Below are positions 52,977 through 61,272 of a stretch of 64,000 nucleotides of DNA, in pieces. Position 1 is the stretch's first letter; the number at the start of each line of letters is the position of its first letter. Source of the stretch: Chitinophagales bacterium (lineage in GTDB: Bacteria > Bacteroidota > Bacteroidia > Chitinophagales > Saprospiraceae); contig JAKSDI010000049.1 of NCBI GenBank assembly GCA_022360175.1, positions 1-64,000 of the forward strand. The letters are read 5' to 3'. The position numbers were made by a program, and so were the translations under genes. The notes under the pieces were generated by a model, which saw only the letters and a program-made list of their open reading frames with translations, made no database searches and was not told the origin of the DNA.

Positions 52977-53036
52977 CATCTGTTTTGATGGGAGGTTCAG
53001 ATAAATCCCATCCCTTAGGAGCGCATAATTAGGTTG

Positions 53037-53151
53037 CTTTTTTGGTCGAGCAGACTTTTGCTCAGATCAAGGCGCTGCGGAGTGTAATAGCCATAGCTAT
53101 TAACACGAGTACGCAACATAGATATGGGTAAAAAGATGCCACCATAAAAAG
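53037..53151. mobile_element. Hairpin element A, MITE/REP-like candidate
   Basis: About 115 bases bounded by CTTTTTTGGT (53037-53046) and ACCATAAAAAG (53141-53151), with inner stems CTTTTxGCTCA/TATGGGTAAAAAG and a central stem GTGTAATAGC...GCTATTAACAC. The whole folds as one long imperfect hairpin. Its internal word order (CTTTT-CTCA, GGCG, GAGT, ATAGCTAT, GTA-ATAG-ATG) is echoed in element B. No open frame. Confidence 0.55.
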
Positions 53152-53172
53152 ATAAATTAAATGTGCTCTCTT

Positions 53173-53372
53173 AAGTGCCAAGACAAAATTGTGTTACCAT
53201 TATCTTGAGAAGAATTTTTATTCTAGACAAGGAAACTTTTCTCACGAGGCCTGACCGAGTAAAAAACGTAGGCGAAGTGGTGCTTCGACGTCCCGATAGC
53301 TATCGGGATTTAACGCCGTATAGGATGAAAATTGCCTCAAGATAATATGTGATTTAATTTGTCTTGGCACTT
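53173..53372. mobile_element. Hairpin element B with long terminal inverted repeats (200 bp)
   Basis: The ends are AAGTGCCAAGACAAA (53173-53187) and its exact inverse (53358-53372). After a divergent stretch, a second perfect block ATTATCTTGAG faces CTCAAGATAAT, so the terminal repeats run about 55 bp imperfectly. The centre carries GTCCCGATAGCTATCGGGAT. No open frame and no clear target duplication. It is a candidate non-autonomous element, adjacent to element A. Confidence 0.65.
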
Positions 53373-53390
53373 ACTTAATCCCAAGAATGA

Positions 53391-53440
53391 TAAAACCCGA
53401 ATTTTTGCATTACGCTAAAAATTCGGGTTTATTTTATTTA
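53391..53440 (-). terminator. Bidirectional terminator downstream of infB
   Basis: AAACCCGAATTTTT (53393-53406) and AAAAATTCGGGTTT (53417-53430) form a perfect 14-bp stem. On the minus strand the tail is TTTTATC; on the plus strand it is ATTTTATTT. It ends the infB transcript. Confidence 0.85.
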
Positions 53441-53478
53441 TCTGAAGATTAAGAGCATGAACTCTAGGGTTTTGCAAC

Positions 53479-56400
53479 TTAATCCAGCGTCTGCTTAATT
53501 TCTACTATTTCGTATGCTTCAACTACATCTCCTACCTTAATATCATTGAAGTTTTTGATATTAAGACCACACTCCATGCCCGATTTCACTTCACGAACAT
53601 CATCCTTGAAGCGCTTGAGCGATGCCAATTCAGCCACTTGTCCTTCTTTAGCAGGATAAACCACTATACCATTACGGATAAGCCTGATTTTACTGTTACG
53701 TTGTATTTTACCATCTGTAACATAACAACCGGCAACCGTACCCACTTTACTAATTTTGAAGGTTTCGCGTACTTCAACTTGTGCTGTAATTTTCTCTTCC
53801 TTCGTAGGTTCAAGCATACCCTCAATCGCTGCACGAATTTCTTCGATCGCTTCGTAAATGATAGAATACATCTTGATTTGTACTCCTTCACGTTCCGCTA
53901 GTTTACGTGCACCACCAGATGGACGTACCTGGAATCCGATGATGATTGCATCAGAGGCAGAAGCTAATAGTACATCCGATTCAACGATTTGTCCTACTGC
54001 TTTGTGTAAAACATTTACCTGTATGCTCTCGATTGATTGCTTGATCAGTGAATCAGAAAGGGCTTCTACAGAACCATCTACATCACCTTTAACGATAAGG
54101 TTAAGCTCTTTAAAGTTACCCAGTGCAAGACGGCGTCCAATCTCATCAAGGCTAATACGCTTGGTAGCACGATTGGCTTGTTCTCTTGCGATTTGCATCC
54201 GCTTAGTAGCTATCTGACGTGCTTCCTGATCAGAGTCAACAACTTTGAAGCGTTCACCTGCCTGTGGAGCGCCACTCAACCCTAGTACAAGAACAGGAGT
54301 AGAAGGTCCCGCTTTATCAATACGTGTACCGCGTTCATTAAACATTGCTTTGACTCTACCAGAGTGCTCACCAGCTACTGTTGCATCACCGATCGAAAGT
54401 GTACCCGTTTGTACCAGCATTTTAGTAACATAACCACGGCCTTTATCTAGTGACGCTTCAATTACTGCTCCAATAGCTTCTCTATCTGGATTAGCTTGTA
54501 GTTCTAGAACTTCCGCTTCCAGTAGCACTTTTTCTAATAGTTCGTCTATACCCTGCCCTGTTTTGGCAGATATATCTTGTGATTGATATTGCCCTCCCCA
54601 TGCTTCAACAAGCAGGTTCATAGAGGCTAGTTCTTGCTTGATACGCTCAGGTTGTGCACCTGGTTTATCTACCTTGTTAATGGCAAATACGATTGGTACA
54701 CCAGCTGCCTGAGCGTGGCTGATTGCTTCTTTTGTTTGAGGCATGATACTATCATCTGCCGCAATAATGATAATGGCAATATCTGTTACTTTCGCACCTC
54801 TGGCACGCATAGCGGTAAAGGCTTCGTGACCAGGCGTATCAAGGAAAGTAATCTTTTTGTTGTCGTCACCAACATGTACCTCATAGGCACCGATGTGCTG
54901 TGTAATCCCCCCTGCTTCACCACTCGCTACATTTGCTTCACGTATGTAGTCAAGTAAAGAGGTCTTACCATGGTCAACGTGACCCATCACCGTAACAATT
55001 GGAGCACGAGGTTTCAAATCTTCTGGATCATCAATGATCTCTTCCTCTTCTTCTGACTGCTCTTCTACACTGATGAACTCAATCTCGTGGCCAAATTCGT
55101 CTGCTACCAGTTCGATGATTTCTGCATCTAAACGCTGGTTAATGGAAACTATCACTCCCAGGTTCATACAAGTAGTAATCACATCAGTTACTGGCACATC
55201 CATCAGGTTGGCTAGCTCCTGTACAGAGATAAACTCTGTAACCTGTAACTTCCCTGTCTCCATCTCCTGCTCGCGAATTTCCTGCTTTTCACGCAATCGT
55301 TCACGATTATCACGGCGCATTTTCTGGCGCTTCTTTTTACCCGCACCAGAAATGCGGGCCATTGTAGCCTTGATCTTTTCTTCGATCTCCTTTTGTGAAA
55401 CCTCTTTAGGTTCGTCTGGCTTTCTTTGGTTTCTGCCACGTCCTTGTCCTCTTCCTCCAGGTCTTGATGAATCTCTGCGGCGATCATTACCACCTCCGCC
55501 ACCTGGAGAAACCGTTTTACGTTTTCTACGGCGCTTTTTGCGTTCATCGCTTCCTGCACTACTACTGCTACCTCCGCTCTTATTATTATTGTTGTTGTTG
55601 TTATTATTGCCGCCCCTAGATGCATCAGGCTTACGCTTTGCCTGCTGTGGCGTACCACCCTTTTTCTCGTCCTTTTTCTCCTGCTCTTTCTTTTTCTTGC
55701 TCTTCTTAGGGCGCTCGAATTTATTCAGGTCAATTTTACCCTGTATTTTCAGTCCTCTAAGTTCAGGAGCATTAGCTTTGATCAATTTGCTACCCTGTGG
55801 AGCAGTTTCCTTTGATTCGCCCTCCTTGCTCTCGCTCTTAGCGGCTTCTTCCGGTGCTTTTGCCTCTGGAGCAGCTTCTTCCTTTTTCTTTTCTGGCGCT
55901 TTTTCCACTTTATTTACCTGAGGCTTAGGCTTGGCCTCACTTTCAGGTTTGGACTCCCTTTTAGGAGCTGTTACCTTTTCTTCCTTTTTCTCTTCAGGTT
56001 TAAGCTTTGATTCAGCTTTCTTTTCCTCAGTCTCTACCAATTGTTCCACAGGAGGTTCTGGTTTTGAAGGTGTTGGTTTTTCTTCTTTTGCGAGAGCCTC
56101 TTCCTTTTTTTCCTGCTTAGGCTCAGGTTTAGAAACAGCTGGTTCAGGCATTTCAGGAGTTGATGGCTTCTCCGCCTTATCCTCTGTCTTAGCAGCAGGC
56201 ACTTCTTCTTTCTTCTCAGGTACTTTTTCCTCTACTGGCTTTTCAACAGGCTTTTTATCCTCTACCTCAGGCTGCACTGGCTTGGGTTCCGGTTTAGGCT
56301 CCTCTTTCTTTTCAACCTTAGGTTTTGGAGGCTCTACCTTTTCTTTTTCTTCTTTCTTAGGTTTGTCTTTCCCAAGATTAATTTTACCCAGTACTTTCAG

Positions 56401-56805
56401 GCCACGTGCTTTTCTAGGCTCAGGCTTGGCTTCCTCCTTTTCTGGCATGTCAACAACTTCCTTTTCGGCAGGAGTTGTTTCCGCAACAGGTACAACAGGC
56501 TTCTCTTCCTTAGGAGGAGGTGGTGGTGTAGCTGTTTCCGCCTTAGGTTCTGCTGGTGCAGCAGGCTCTTCTTTTGGTTGATCTTTCGAAGACGGAGTAA
56601 CCCGGTTCCCAATTACCAAAGAATCCGCTTTCTCTTTGATAGCAATAGACTTCTGGAACTCCTTCAGCAGCTCATCATACATCTCATCCGAGATCTTTGC
56701 TGTAGGCTTGTTCTCTATATCAAACCCCTTGTTGTTCAAATGATCAACAATGGTGGTTGTCCCCACATTTAACTCTTTTGCTATCTTAACTAAACGTTTG
56801 GCCAT
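53479..56805 (-). CDS. infB: Translation initiation factor IF-2
   Basis: Delivers initiator tRNA to the ribosome in a GTP-dependent step. The 1108-residue chain has an N-terminal IF2N domain ([20 protein letters not shown], 1-20), then a very long K/E/P-rich low-complexity linker (about 65-335), a poly-Asn stretch of about nine residues near 405 and a basic Arg/Gly region. A second IF2N-like domain precedes the G domain. GTPase motifs are intact: GHVDHGKT near 607, DTPGHEAF, and NKVDK near 710. The C-terminal fMet-tRNA-binding domain is complete. It is the last gene of the rimP-nusA-infB operon, 448 bases after nusA. Confidence 0.97.
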
Positions 56806-57253
56806 TCTTAAATTTTAGTACAAATTGTGCAGCAATTAATTCCCAGCAAAAGCTTCTTGTTGTATAGCTTCCTTGATCAAATTTCACCGTTTATGTGGAA
56901 AAATAAGGAGTGGCTTTCAAAAAACTTTCGCCTATCAATATATCATTCAAAATATTAAGTTTCGGGCTATCCCTACATGGTTGTAATTTAAAAATAAATC
57001 TACCATTTGTATCTTTCATCCACGCTTGTATAAACTATACTTGAGTGGTTTTTTATACTCATTCCGCTTTCAGCTTAGAAGGGTTTTTCATTGTCGATAA
57101 ACCGAAAAACGGTAAATTTATTTTTAGATCATTTCATAAGGTGCCGCGTAACAGCCCGAAAAACTTTTGCAAAGATAATAGGATTACGCTCTATTATATA
57201 ACTCTACAGCACAAAAAGCTTAAAAAAGCTAAGTTATAGAGCATATTCGACTA
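56806..57253. other. 448-bp nusA-infB spacer
   Basis: This operon gap is unusually long. It holds a minus-strand candidate -7 element (TATCTTTG, complement at 57170-57177) without a -33, a stem near the nusA end (CTCTATAACT with AGTTATATAATAGAG, around 57187-57240) with AGCTTTTTTAAGCTTTTT, and a small hairpin at about 57020-57056. No gene is supported. It may be an infB leader. Confidence 0.5.
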
Positions 57254-58498
57254 CTATTCTTCAAATTCAGCAGCTAGAATATTGAGTACTTCCTCCACAG
57301 TCTCTTCTTCTAAGTCGGTACGTCTCAGCAATTCATCCTTACTCAATTCTAATACGCTTCTTGCTGTATCACACCCAATAGACTTGAGTGAATTGATTAC
57401 CCACTCATCTATCTCATCTGCAAATTCATCAAGATCTACATCATCAATCTCAATTTCTTGAATATTGTTCCTGTAAACATCAATTTCACATTCTGTAAGC
57501 CTGCTAGCTAGCTTAATATTCGTACCTCCACGCCCAATAGCAAGAGACACCTGGTCTGGTTCAAGGAACACATTTGCCCGACGACGCTCCAGATCAAGAT
57601 CTATAGAACTAACAGCAGCAGGAGTCAATGCCCGCTGAATAAACAATTGCTCATTATTAGTATAATTAACAATGTCTATATTTTCATTGCGCAATTCCCG
57701 AACGATACCATGAATACGAGATCCTTTCATCCCCACACATGCTCCTACTGGATCAATACGATCATCATAAGATTCTACCGCTACCTTAGCACGCTCTCCA
57801 GGAATACGAACAATTTTCTTGATGGTAATCAATCCATCTTCAATTTCCGGCACCTCTTGTTCCATTAGTTTTTCGAGGAAGAGTTCAGCTGTACGAGACA
57901 TAATAACCACTGGATTATTATTACGCATCTCTACTCTCTTAATGACACCACGAACCATATCGCCCTTACGGAAAAAATCTCCTTTAATCATTTCATTACG
58001 AGGCAACACCAGTTCATTTCCTGTTGCATCGTCTAAAATGAGTAGTTCTCTTTTTAGTATCTGATGAACTTCTCCTAAAATGATATCTCCTACACGTTCA
58101 CTATAACGACGGAAAATTTCGTCTTTTTCCAGTTCCATAATCCTGGAAATAAGCGTTTGGCGTGCGGCCATAATAGCACGACGGCCAAAATCCTCCAGAT
58201 GAAGTTGTTCATAACACTCTTCACCAATTTCATAATCCTCATCAATGGATAGCGCTTCAGAGATAGAAACCTGGCTGCGATCATCGGTCACCTCCCCATC
58301 AGGAACAATCTCACGTACCCGCCACAATTCAAGGTCACCTTTAGTAGTATTGACAATCACATCAAAGTTCTCATCTGAGCCATACTTCTTTCGGATCAGC
58401 GTACGAAATACATCTTCCAAAACCCTAACCATTGTAGGTCGGTCGATGTTTTTTCCGGCTTTGAAATCCGAGAAAGTGTCTACCAAATTCATTATCAA
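57254..58498 (-). CDS. nusA: Transcription termination/antitermination factor NusA
   Basis: RNA polymerase-associated factor of 414 residues. It has the N-terminal polymerase-binding domain, an S1 domain at about 135-200 and two KH domains (VGMKGSRIHGIVRELRNENIDIV, cited by its ends; DQVSLAIGRGGTNIKLASRLT, cited by its ends) with the GxxG loops. The C-terminal acidic tail (EETVEEVLNILAAEFEE) is a helix-hairpin-like end. It is in the conserved order rimP-nusA-infB, 44 bases after rimP. Confidence 0.96.
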   Translation of the reverse strand: MIMNLVDTFSDFKAGKNIDRPTMVRVLEDVFRTLIRKKYGSDENFDVIVNTTKGDLELWRVREIVPDGEVTDDRSQVSISEALSIDEDYEIGEECYEQLHLEDFGRRAIMAARQTLISRIMELEKDEIFRRYSERVGDIILGEVHQILKRELLILDDATGNELVLPRNEMIKGDFFRKGDMVRGVIKRVEMRNNNPVVIMSRTAELFLEKLMEQEVPEIEDGLITIKKIVRIPGERAKVAVESYDDRIDPVGACVGMKGSRIHGIVRELRNENIDIVNYTNNEQLFIQRALTPAAVSSIDLDLERRRANVFLEPDQVSLAIGRGGTNIKLASRLTECEIDVYRNNIQEIEIDDVDLDEFADEIDEWVINSLKSIGCDTARSVLELSKDELLRRTDLEEETVEEVLNILAAEFEE

Positions 58499-58542
58499 AA
58501 ATTTTAATTCTCAGGCCACTGTATTACCTGAAAAGATGATAT

Positions 58543-59052
58543 CTAAAAACTTATCTTTATTTTAGCTTTTGCAATTTGATCAAACGGAATTTCACTCTCC
58601 ACTACCTCTGTTTTCTTCCGCTTCCCTTCTTTAATACGAACTTTTGCAGAAAGGGTAATGCTTTCTTCATCAACCTTGATCAAGGTACCTTCCTTCTTAC
58701 CATCTTCTAGAGTAGAAACTTCCAGTTTTCTACCTACATGTTTTGGATACTGTCGTTTCATCGTTAGTGGGCGGGTCGCTCCAGGAGAAGAAACCTCTAA
58801 GGTGTACTTCTCACCAAGCCAGCCTTCCTCATCCAGGTATGCTTCCAGATAACGGCTGATTCTTCGGCAGGTATCAAAACTTATACCCGTGTCACTATCG
58901 ATGTATACTTCCAGTTTTGTATTATTCAATTTGAGATCTACCAGAAAACAATCATTGAATTCTTCTTCTTGAAATTTTTCCTCCAGCAGATCAGTAATTT
59001 TTGCTTCTACCACTTTCTGTATTTGGGTTAGTAAACGCAAAAGAGGGAACAT
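58543..59052 (-). CDS. rimP: Ribosome maturation factor RimP
   Basis: Needed for 30S subunit assembly. The start is set at ATG 59052 (169 residues), since a longer frame to 59172 would begin upstream of a well-formed promoter and exceed the usual family length. Typical motifs are present: VYIDSDTGISFDTCRRIS, cited by its ends, YTLEVSSPGATRPL and GRKLEVSTL. A GTG at about codon 14 is an alternative start. It is first of the rimP-nusA-infB operon and its start codon is part of a hairpin. Confidence 0.93.
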   Translation of the reverse strand: MFPLLRLLTQIQKVVEAKITDLLEEKFQEEEFNDCFLVDLKLNNTKLEVYIDSDTGISFDTCRRISRYLEAYLDEEGWLGEKYTLEVSSPGATRPLTMKRQYPKHVGRKLEVSTLEDGKKEGTLIKVDEESITLSAKVRIKEGKRKKTEVVESEIPFDQIAKAKIKISF

Positions 59053-59067
59053 GGTGTTCCCTCTTTT
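59039..59067 (-). promoter_or_regulatory. Perfect hairpin enclosing the rimP start codon
   Basis: On the minus strand, AAAAGAGGGAAC (59067-59056) pairs perfectly with GTTCCCTCTTTT (59050-59039) around the loop ACCAT. The ATG of rimP is at 59052-59050, so it straddles the loop and the first base pair. The expected transcript start near 59085 puts the structure 18 bases into the mRNA. Confidence 0.8.
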
Positions 59068-59091
59068 GGTGAGATTTCGTTTGATCTGCCA

Positions 59092-59122
59092 CAAAGATAC
59101 GACAATACTAACAGAAGTGCAA
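59092..59122 (-). promoter_or_regulatory. Promoter of rimP-nusA-infB
   Basis: On the minus strand, TTG (complement 59120-59122) is followed after 20 bases by TATCTTTG (complement 59092-59099), an exact TAnnTTTG. The transcript should start near 59085. Confidence 0.75.
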
Positions 59123-59201
59123 GTCCTTATAAAAAGGAACACTTTCTGTTCTTTCAGAAAAAATTGAACCAAAGTAGTTTCATTTCTAAACCAGCCCTTT
59201 G

Positions 59202-59209
59202 TATCTTTG
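59202..59209 (+). promoter_or_regulatory. -7 promoter element of mqnC
   Basis: TATCTTTG is an exact -7 match, ending 33 bases before the ATG at 59243. A -33 element is weak. The divergent arrangement with the rimP promoter makes this a shared control region. Confidence 0.6.
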
Positions 59210-59242
59210 TTGAAGTTGAAGACTTAAGAGAATAATTATACT

Positions 59243-60388
59243 ATGATAAAAGTGGATGAATTGCTCGAACGAGCATTGAACCTGGAATTTCTAAGCGCGG
59301 AAGAAGGTGTTTTCTTATTCGAAAATGCGTCTACTGCAGAATTAATGCATGTTGGGCATCAGTTGAGAATGAAACATGTACCCAATGATGTTGTCACCTG
59401 GATCATTGATCGTAATTCCAATACGACAAATGTATGCATTGCCAATTGCAAATTTTGTAATTTCTATCGGCGCCCAGGTCATGAAGAGTCTTACACTACA
59501 ACGATCGAAGAATACCAGCAAAAGATTGATGAGCTATTCCGCTTTGGAGGCCGTCAATTATTGCTTCAGGGAGGGCATCACCCTGATCTTGGTTTATCAT
59601 TTTATGTTGATTTATTTAAAGAGCTGAAATCACTTTATCCAGACTTAAAGCTACACGCTTTAGGCCCACCTGAAATTGCGCACATTGCCAAACTGGACCA
59701 GGCTTCTCATATAGAAGTATTAAAAGCCCTTAAAGATGCTGGCTTGGATTCTCTTCCAGGTGCAGGTGCAGAAATTTTGAGTGATCGTGTAAGGCGGTTG
59801 ATATCTAAGGGAAAATGTGGAGGACAGGAATGGCTAGACGTTATGCATGCTGCTCATCAGGTTGGGTTAACGACCTCTGCCACGATGATGTTTGGCCATA
59901 TCGAGACCAATCACGAGCGCATGGACCACCTGGTACGTATGCGTGAAGTCCAAGCTATGAAACCCAAAGAAGCTAAAGGGTTTATAGCTTTTATCCCCTG
60001 GCCTTTCCAGGATGAAGATACCATCTTAAAACGCTTGAAGCGCGCTCGCAATACATGCACAGGTGATGAGTATGTACGTATGATTGCCATGAGCAGAATC
60101 ATGCTGCCTAATATTACCAATATTCAGGCTTCATGGTTGACAGTAGGCAAACAGGTTGCACAATTATGTCTCTATGCTGGTGCTAATGATTTTGGCTCTA
60201 TCATGATAGAAGAAAATGTAGTTTCTGCTGCAGGAGCTCGTTTCCGCTTTACGGCCGATGGCATTCAGGAAGCAATACGAGAAGCTGGTTTCCAGCCACA
60301 ACTCCGTACTCAGGAATATGAATATCGGGAATTACCTAAAGATATGATCAACCAAGAACTGGATAAAAAGGCCATGATAGTAGATTAA
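59243..60388 (+). CDS. mqnC: Cyclic dehypoxanthine futalosine synthase (MqnC), radical SAM
   Basis: Radical SAM enzyme of the futalosine pathway to menaquinone; it cyclises dehypoxanthine futalosine. The 381-residue protein carries the radical SAM cysteines C65-x3-C69-x2-C72 (VCIANCKFCNFYR). The DxxLLQGG-like turn (RQLLLQGGHHPDLGL) and the SLPGAGAEILSDRVR segment match MqnC rather than MqnE. The organism thus makes menaquinone without the chorismate-isomerase route. Other mqn genes are not in the window. A purine nucleoside phosphorylase gene follows after 50 bases, probably cotranscribed. Confidence 0.92.
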   Translation: MIKVDELLERALNLEFLSAEEGVFLFENASTAELMHVGHQLRMKHVPNDVVTWIIDRNSNTTNVCIANCKFCNFYRRPGHEESYTTTIEEYQQKIDELFRFGGRQLLLQGGHHPDLGLSFYVDLFKELKSLYPDLKLHALGPPEIAHIAKLDQASHIEVLKALKDAGLDSLPGAGAEILSDRVRRLISKGKCGGQEWLDVMHAAHQVGLTTSATMMFGHIETNHERMDHLVRMREVQAMKPKEAKGFIAFIPWPFQDEDTILKRLKRARNTCTGDEYVRMIAMSRIMLPNITNIQASWLTVGKQVAQLCLYAGANDFGSIMIEENVVSAAGARFRFTADGIQEAIREAGFQPQLRTQEYEYRELPKDMINQELDKKAMIVD

Positions 60389-60438
60389 GTATAGAATAAC
60401 CTTTTGAGTACAATCGTAAAATGTAGAATATATAAGGT

Positions 60439-61272
60439 ATGCAAACAGCACTTTTTGATCAGATAGAGGAAGCACTACAATATATACGAAGTAAAACAGA
60501 TTTTAAACCACAGTTTGGTATCATCCTTGGCACCGGGCTAAGTGGACTGGCAGATGAGATTGAAGTGATAGCCAGTATTCCATATAGTGACATTCCACAT
60601 TTTCCAGTTTCCACAGTACAAAGCCATAAAGGCCAGTTGGTATTTGGCAAATTGGATGGTATAGCGGTAGTGGCTATGGCAGGGCGCTTTCATTATTATG
60701 AAGGATATAGTATGCAGGAAATTACTTTTCCTATACGCGTGCTAAAGCATCTCAACATCCAGCGCCTTTTCATCAGTAATGCTGCTGGTAGTACCAACGA
60801 ACACATCGAAGCAGGTGATTTAGTGTTTATAAAAGATCATATCAATTTACAGGCAGGCAACCCACTACGCGGCCCTAATGATGAAAGGCTTGGTCCTCGT
60901 TTTCCCGATATGTTGCATGCCTATGATGGTAAATGGAATGCTCGCGGACTCACAATTGCTCGCCAATTAGGGATACGTGTCCATGAAGGAGTATACCTTA
61001 GCCTACAAGGCCCAAACCTTGAAACACCTGCTGAGTATCATTTTGCCAATCTTATTGGAGCAGATATGGTAGGGATGTCTACCGTGCCAGAAGTCCTGGT
61101 AGCGCGCCATATGGAATTGCCCGTTTTGGTAATGTCTGTTGCTACCAATAAATGTTATCCTATTGAAGAAATTAAGGAAACTTCTGTAGATGATGTCATT
61201 GCTGTAGCAAAAGGTGCAGAACCTAAAATGACCGCTATAGTCAAGCAACTACTGAAAGAAATGAGTAATTAA
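60439..61272 (+). CDS. Purine-nucleoside phosphorylase, trimeric type
   Basis: Cleaves inosine or guanosine with phosphate to release hypoxanthine or guanine; cytosolic, 277 residues. Family motifs: GIILGTGLSGLADEI (phosphate site), IPHFPVSTVQSHKG, MAGRFHYYEGYS, SNAAGSTNEHIEAGDLV, and the base-binding TNKCYP region with Asn in VATNK. Nearest to the mammalian-like inosine/guanosine phosphorylases. It lies downstream of mqnC; hypoxanthine is released earlier in the futalosine pathway by another enzyme, so a direct link is not shown. A terminator follows. Confidence 0.93.
   Translation: MQTALFDQIEEALQYIRSKTDFKPQFGIILGTGLSGLADEIEVIASIPYSDIPHFPVSTVQSHKGQLVFGKLDGIAVVAMAGRFHYYEGYSMQEITFPIRVLKHLNIQRLFISNAAGSTNEHIEAGDLVFIKDHINLQAGNPLRGPNDERLGPRFPDMLHAYDGKWNARGLTIARQLGIRVHEGVYLSLQGPNLETPAEYHFANLIGADMVGMSTVPEVLVARHMELPVLVMSVATNKCYPIEEIKETSVDDVIAVAKGAEPKMTAIVKQLLKEMSN

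Follow-up and report, generated by a model that had tools for sequence, protein, structure and literature searches.

The question raised by this locus is what purpose is served by a perfect hairpin directly upstream of the rimP-nusA-infB operon, and whether an ATG at the edge of its loop has any part in it. The window, a stretch of 64,000 nucleotides from a Chitinophagales bacterium, carries a hairpin on its minus strand (59067-59039), with a perfect stem of 12 bp and the loop ACCAT. The 5' arm, AAAAGAGGGAAC, occupies 59067-59056, the loop 59055-59051, and the 3' arm, GTTCCCTCTTTT, 59050-59039. The last four T of the 3' arm open an interrupted U-tract, TTTT GCG TTT, at 59042-59033, and the ATG at 59052-59050 straddles the loop and the 3' arm. 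The initial annotation, which described the arms, the loop and the ATG as they are found here, took this ATG for the start codon of rimP and the stem for a block to translation initiation. The occurrence of the hairpin is far beyond chance: the 29-mer folds with an energy of -17.1 kcal/mol (z -5.9, with none of 200 shuffles as good), the z value is -3.8 when it is refolded with the leader and downstream sequence, and GAGGGAAC-N5-GTTCCCTC has a single mismatch-free site in the 9.1-Mb genome of the window species, where the next-best sites have 3 mismatches.

Terminator-like hairpins occupy the same position in the relatives. The 220 nt before rimP were searched for a stem of at least 7 pairs, at least 4 of them GC, with a loop of 3-9 nt and at least 5 T of 8. 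Such a hairpin with its U-tract precedes rimP at 49 of the 50 loci of the family and order, the window included, against 10 of 1000 dinucleotide shuffles. It does so at 33 of 35 loci from other class members (5 of 700 shuffles), at 23 of 24 loci of the named Bacteroidota set (6 of 480) and at 33 of 55 loci of the phylum outside the class (28 of 1100). The shuffle rate across the family and order, class and named sets is 0.7-1.3%, and other 220-nt windows of the same loci pass in 16 of 750, 9 of 170, 27 of 1190 and 17 of 610 cases for the four sets in the same order. The family and order set comprises 50 leaders: rimP was matched in 57 of 60 genomes, that of the window included, and 50 of these 57 were examined as this set. 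The named set retains 24 of the 28 Bacteroidota-like loci among 80 named ones, after removal of three duplicating G003, G005 and G023 and of one labelled Verrucomicrobia. Outside the class, 55 of the 110 rimP-bearing genomes were looked at, 26 being the best-scoring loci and 29 picked by hand over the families. At a few loci, such as L146, the best-scoring hairpin under the rule differs from the conserved stem, which is still visible there.

The same layout recurs at all but one of the 50 loci: in most a promoter-like box comes first, and a short leader then runs into a stem-loop of the GAGGG type, which is followed by a U-tract and by rimP itself. The exception, G022, has a contig end between the hairpin and rimP, and the hairpin lies on another contig with an overlapping end. 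The two contigs concerned (C269 and C429, loci L058 and L028) share their end sequence, and the distance between hairpin and rimP is seemingly longer there, perhaps owing to an inserted repeat. The strict hairpin criteria failed in the class genomes G070 and G152 and at locus L158, and the copy in G075 has almost no U-tract. In G070 and G152 an unusual imperfect stem, GGGAAGGC..GCCTTTTTTC, is found at the same place (L231, L244). Outside the class (L083-L112, L254-L282) the hairpins of the rimP leaders usually have another terminator-like stem, such as GTGGGnn/CCCAC, TAGCCCG/CGGGCTA or TCGCCC/GGGCGA; each of these recurs in several genomes, and the stem letters at this one locus are lineage-specific.

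HMM matches identify the products of the window operon, all on the minus strand, as RimP (58543-59013; NF002531, PF02576 and PF17384), NusA (the ORF as listed, 57254-58498; TIGR01953, 372 bits against a cut-off of 253) and IF2 (infB, 53479-56805; TIGR00487, 785 bits against a cut-off of 424). IF2 is 1108 residues long, and about 520 K/E/P-rich residues precede its IF2_N domain. RimP matches the Bacteroidetes model NCBIfam NF002531 with 128.9 bits (cut-off 123), and position 3 of the model aligns with residue 16 of the ATG-started protein. The homologues start 13 codons downstream of the loop ATG, at the residue encoded in the window by the GTG at 59013-59011, which is the most likely start of rimP. 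The codon at this residue in the 13 nearest relatives (L002-L014) is GTG in nine, ATG in one, TTG in one and another codon in two.

Translational control, under which rimP would start at the loop ATG and a protein or temperature would open the stem hiding it, draws on the ATG standing in the rimP frame without a stop, on an A at -3, and on the lowered initiation at structured starts reported for Flavobacterium johnsoniae (PMC6847099); against it stand the homologue starts, the NF002531 alignment and the closed frames of the relatives. Conservation extends to the stem, the U-tract that follows it and its position after the promoter, and not to the ATG, the reading frame or the loop letters, which vary freely. 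We regard control of initiation by an enclosed start codon as very improbable. The loop ATG is most likely incidental, because in 22 of the 41 strict-core loci, the window counted among the 41, the frame of rimP does not stay open from the hairpin to the gene, only 4 of the 41 (the window among them) have an in-frame ATG inside the hairpin, and the relatives start at the GTG residue. The initial annotation had itself named a different start codon as grounds for giving up its reading, and such a codon emerges here from homology rather than from mapping. It is possible that RimP carries a 13-residue N-terminal extension in the window species alone.

The pairing of the stem is kept in the relatives while its letters change. 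In an alignment of 49 leaders, the window included (the hairpins of L012, L014 and L029 placed by hand, and L028 left out), 92% of cells pair, and both sides have changed in 7 of the 12 pairs. Double-change cells number 28, against 8.7 in shuffles, none of 500 shuffles being as high and slid partners giving at most 14. Columns 21 and 38, for example, are AU in 31 leaders, GC in 15 and GU in 3. The compensatory changes that the initial annotation had proposed to look for in related rimP leaders are thus present, and the loss of pairing in close relatives that would have spoken against it is not seen. The central AGGG/CCCT of the stem is almost invariant, and these positions therefore carry no information on pairing.

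The constancy of these letters suggests another reading, in which the leader is an attenuator whose regulator, be it NusA, RimP or another RNA-binding protein, recognises the stem letters GAGGGRAC/GUYCCCUC. Something may read the stem, since one would not expect an ordinary terminator to conserve its sequence throughout a family, and AGGG/CCCT is almost constant in the 49 leaders; the same argument was made by Naville and Gautheret for their motif (PMC2965389). A search of 60 genomes for the exact motif AGAGGGAAC-N3-9-GTTCCCTCTTTT, in which a palindromic match to the two strands counts as one site, gives a single site in each of 17. In 16 of these genomes the site stands immediately before rimP, and in the 17th, G022, it is on the contig that overlaps the rimP contig; the reversed pattern occurs in none of the 60. 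Strict need for the letters is argued against by stems that have been replaced with the position kept: most of the stem has given way to GAGGCACGC/GCGTGCCTC in G114 and G141, and in G179 and in G070 and G152 other stems occupy the place, with a T-rich stretch after them. The strict core is likewise found in none of the 55 phylum members outside the class. Recognition of the stem letters is on balance unlikely. A covariance model built from the 49 leaders and searched in 148 genomes of the phylum was swamped by ordinary terminators, chiefly in some class members, and is therefore not used as proof of specificity, which rests on the exact motif, its position and the controls.

The hairpin lies close behind a promoter. 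A -7 box, TATCTTTG, of the Bacteroidota form TAnnTTTG (consensus as given in PMC9723704) is located at 59099-59092 on the minus strand, 28 nt ahead of the GAGGG core. Because of this box, the earlier placement of the 5' end about 18 bases upstream of the hairpin appears reasonable: with the start taken as 5 nt after the box, transcription is predicted to begin at about 59087, and the transcribed leader before the stem would be about 20 nt (59087-59068). A TTG at 59122-59120 on the same strand, 20 nt upstream of the -7 box, is a possible -33 element. Of the 49 loci with a hairpin, 46 have a TAnnTTTG no more than 60 nt before it, and in 71 leaders the core lies 10-30 nt after the -7 box, equivalent to about 3-23 nt into the RNA from the estimated start. 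The window has 61 TAnnTTTG sites, both strands taken together, and the one before rimP alone has such a hairpin and U-tract within the next 90 nt. TATCTTTG is also present at 59202-59209 on the plus strand, about 34 bases before the start of mqnC, and is likely to be the promoter box of that divergent gene. A sigma-70 and terminator scan of 58500-60000, of a kind not made for Bacteroidota promoters, called nothing.

The 3' side of the stem gives the structure a polarity. Among 74 strict-core leaders the 8 nt on the 3' side of the core hold a mean of 6.4 T, with a minimum of 5, whereas A-richness on the 5' side is less marked (3.5 of 8). In the window the U-tract, TTTTGCGTTT, is weaker than in most relatives, the majority of which have at least 5 T in a row. 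The two core arms are separated by 3 to 12 nt, odd and even numbers both occurring. The one-sided T-richness and the variable gap point to an RNA hairpin with polarity and not to a DNA operator. The dyad could also be a DNA site at which a repressor binds immediately past the promoter, and a perfect palindrome lying 10-30 bp downstream of the -7 box would suit such an operator; given the one-sided U-tract, the odd and even gaps and the replacement of stems by unlike stems, we find this scarcely credible. A hairpin that only protects the 5' end of the mRNA, or is processed by an RNase, is favoured by the short distance, about 20 nt at most, between the stem and the predicted 5' end, but would leave the conserved U-tract on its 3' side unexplained, and we hold it to be highly improbable.

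A stable GC-containing stem followed by a U-tract, the mark of an intrinsic terminator, is present in the window, although a generic terminator scan does not call this copy, nor that of the nearest relative, since in these copies the first U's are taken up in pairs with the A-tract. In the class member G160 the same scan does call the copy, on the gene's strand as well as on the other one; at the G028 locus it calls the hairpin on the opposite strand only. The neighbour of rimP, mqnC, is divergent, and the hairpin is therefore not the terminator of an upstream gene here. From its sequence features, then, the hairpin is with high probability a terminator of the rimP leader. Partners for an alternative fold appear to be missing: at none of 67 loci does leader:arm pairing approach the energy of the stem, and at -1.9 kcal/mol it is hardly stronger than with a shuffled leader (-1.7 kcal/mol). 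Since an antiterminator RNA would have neither space nor a pairing partner here, a general elongation factor that acts on the complex at the hairpin would most likely decide what share of polymerases terminates.

These features together suggest that the 5' leader of rimP-nusA-infB probably contains a promoter-proximal attenuator of the intrinsic-terminator type, with the terminating share most likely set by NusA. RNA polymerase would start at about 59087 and some 20 nt later make the GAGGGAAC stem-loop and the U-tract; a share of polymerases would release a short RNA of about 50-60 nt, and the remainder would read into rimP, to be translated from the GTG at 59013. Abundant NusA, the product of the second gene, would stimulate termination and so limit its own operon. 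We lean towards NusA as the main regulator, its feedback being the best guess because no other sensor fits so short a leader. Termination at the hairpin and a level set by NusA are both our reading of the leader anatomy, and the dependence on NusA is proposed by analogy with Bacillus and E. coli, in which attenuation of the nusA operon is studied. B. subtilis NusA is reported to be autoregulated by NusA-stimulated termination in its own 5' leader (PMC12288461, citing Mondal et al. 2016), and in E. coli two terminators, t1 and t2, are described upstream of rimP (PMC6511841). An intrinsic terminator in the leader of the nusA operon is the feature shared with B. subtilis; NusA dependence has been shown there (PMC12288461), whereas for the present leader we infer it. 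Of the claims in the initial annotation, the placing of a structure close to the start of the operon mRNA is borne out, and this structure, conserved, covarying and promoter-proximal, is under selection. Feedback within the operon is retained as the likeliest purpose of the structure, though not by way of blocked translation initiation, the anatomy being that of an intrinsic terminator. A more far-reaching version appears doubtful: a minimal feedback device common to the class, in which the fixed core, about 3-23 nt into the RNA, would stop the polymerase just past the promoter and have its letters read by NusA or another product of the operon, the window loop adding an in-frame AUG and possibly an N-terminally extended RimP.

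The closest known system is the rimP-leader, which its authors called the most widespread attenuator; its stem is conserved as GGGc(...)gCCC, it lacks an antiterminator, and NusA was proposed as its reader (Naville and Gautheret 2010, PMC2965389). Like it, the element described here is a terminator-like hairpin directly upstream of rimP-nusA-infB (49/50, 33/35 and 23/24 loci), with a G-rich 5' arm, a C-rich 3' arm and conserved stem letters, a downstream T-stretch (interrupted in the window copy), and no antiterminator in any of 67 leaders. The two differ in the stem, where GGG and CCC are kept here and the next letter is A or G (GGGRAC/GTYCCC), and in its position: from the estimated start of the transcript to the beginning of the hairpin the median is 16 nt, against a leader of 180 nt in B. 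subtilis (PMC2965389). Words beginning with 'Bacteroid' are absent from the main text of that paper. The Rfam family RF01770 (rimP, 102 positions) shares the operon position; its gathering cut-off of 47 bits is reached in none of the 60 relatives, none of its listed matches lies at the rimP position, and an Rfam scan of both strands of 53000-61000 of the window gave no match at E<=1. By these comparisons the Bacteroidia element and the rimP-leader appear to be functionally alike, whether homologous or convergent, with a distinct stem core. A 2021 transcriptome of Flavobacterium psychrophilum contains a structured 5' element of rimP that is conserved in Flavobacteriaceae and has no Rfam hit (PMC9723704). 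This is probably the same element as the Bacteroidia hairpin; it is named in the relevant part of that report without structure, mechanism or wider spread. Literature searches of article texts for a leader element of rimP in Bacteroidota returned none besides this one. The attenuator type is thus known from the rimP-leader, and what seems to be new is the distinct stem core together with its position abutting the promoter.

For the window species, the start of rimP as annotated at the loop ATG is likely to be wrong and is corrected to the GTG codon. Should a terminator prove to govern this operon throughout Bacteroidia, feedback by NusA at its own leader would be a near-universal design, and the very short Bacteroidia leader, free of antiterminator or Shine-Dalgarno complications, would offer an easy system for testing it.
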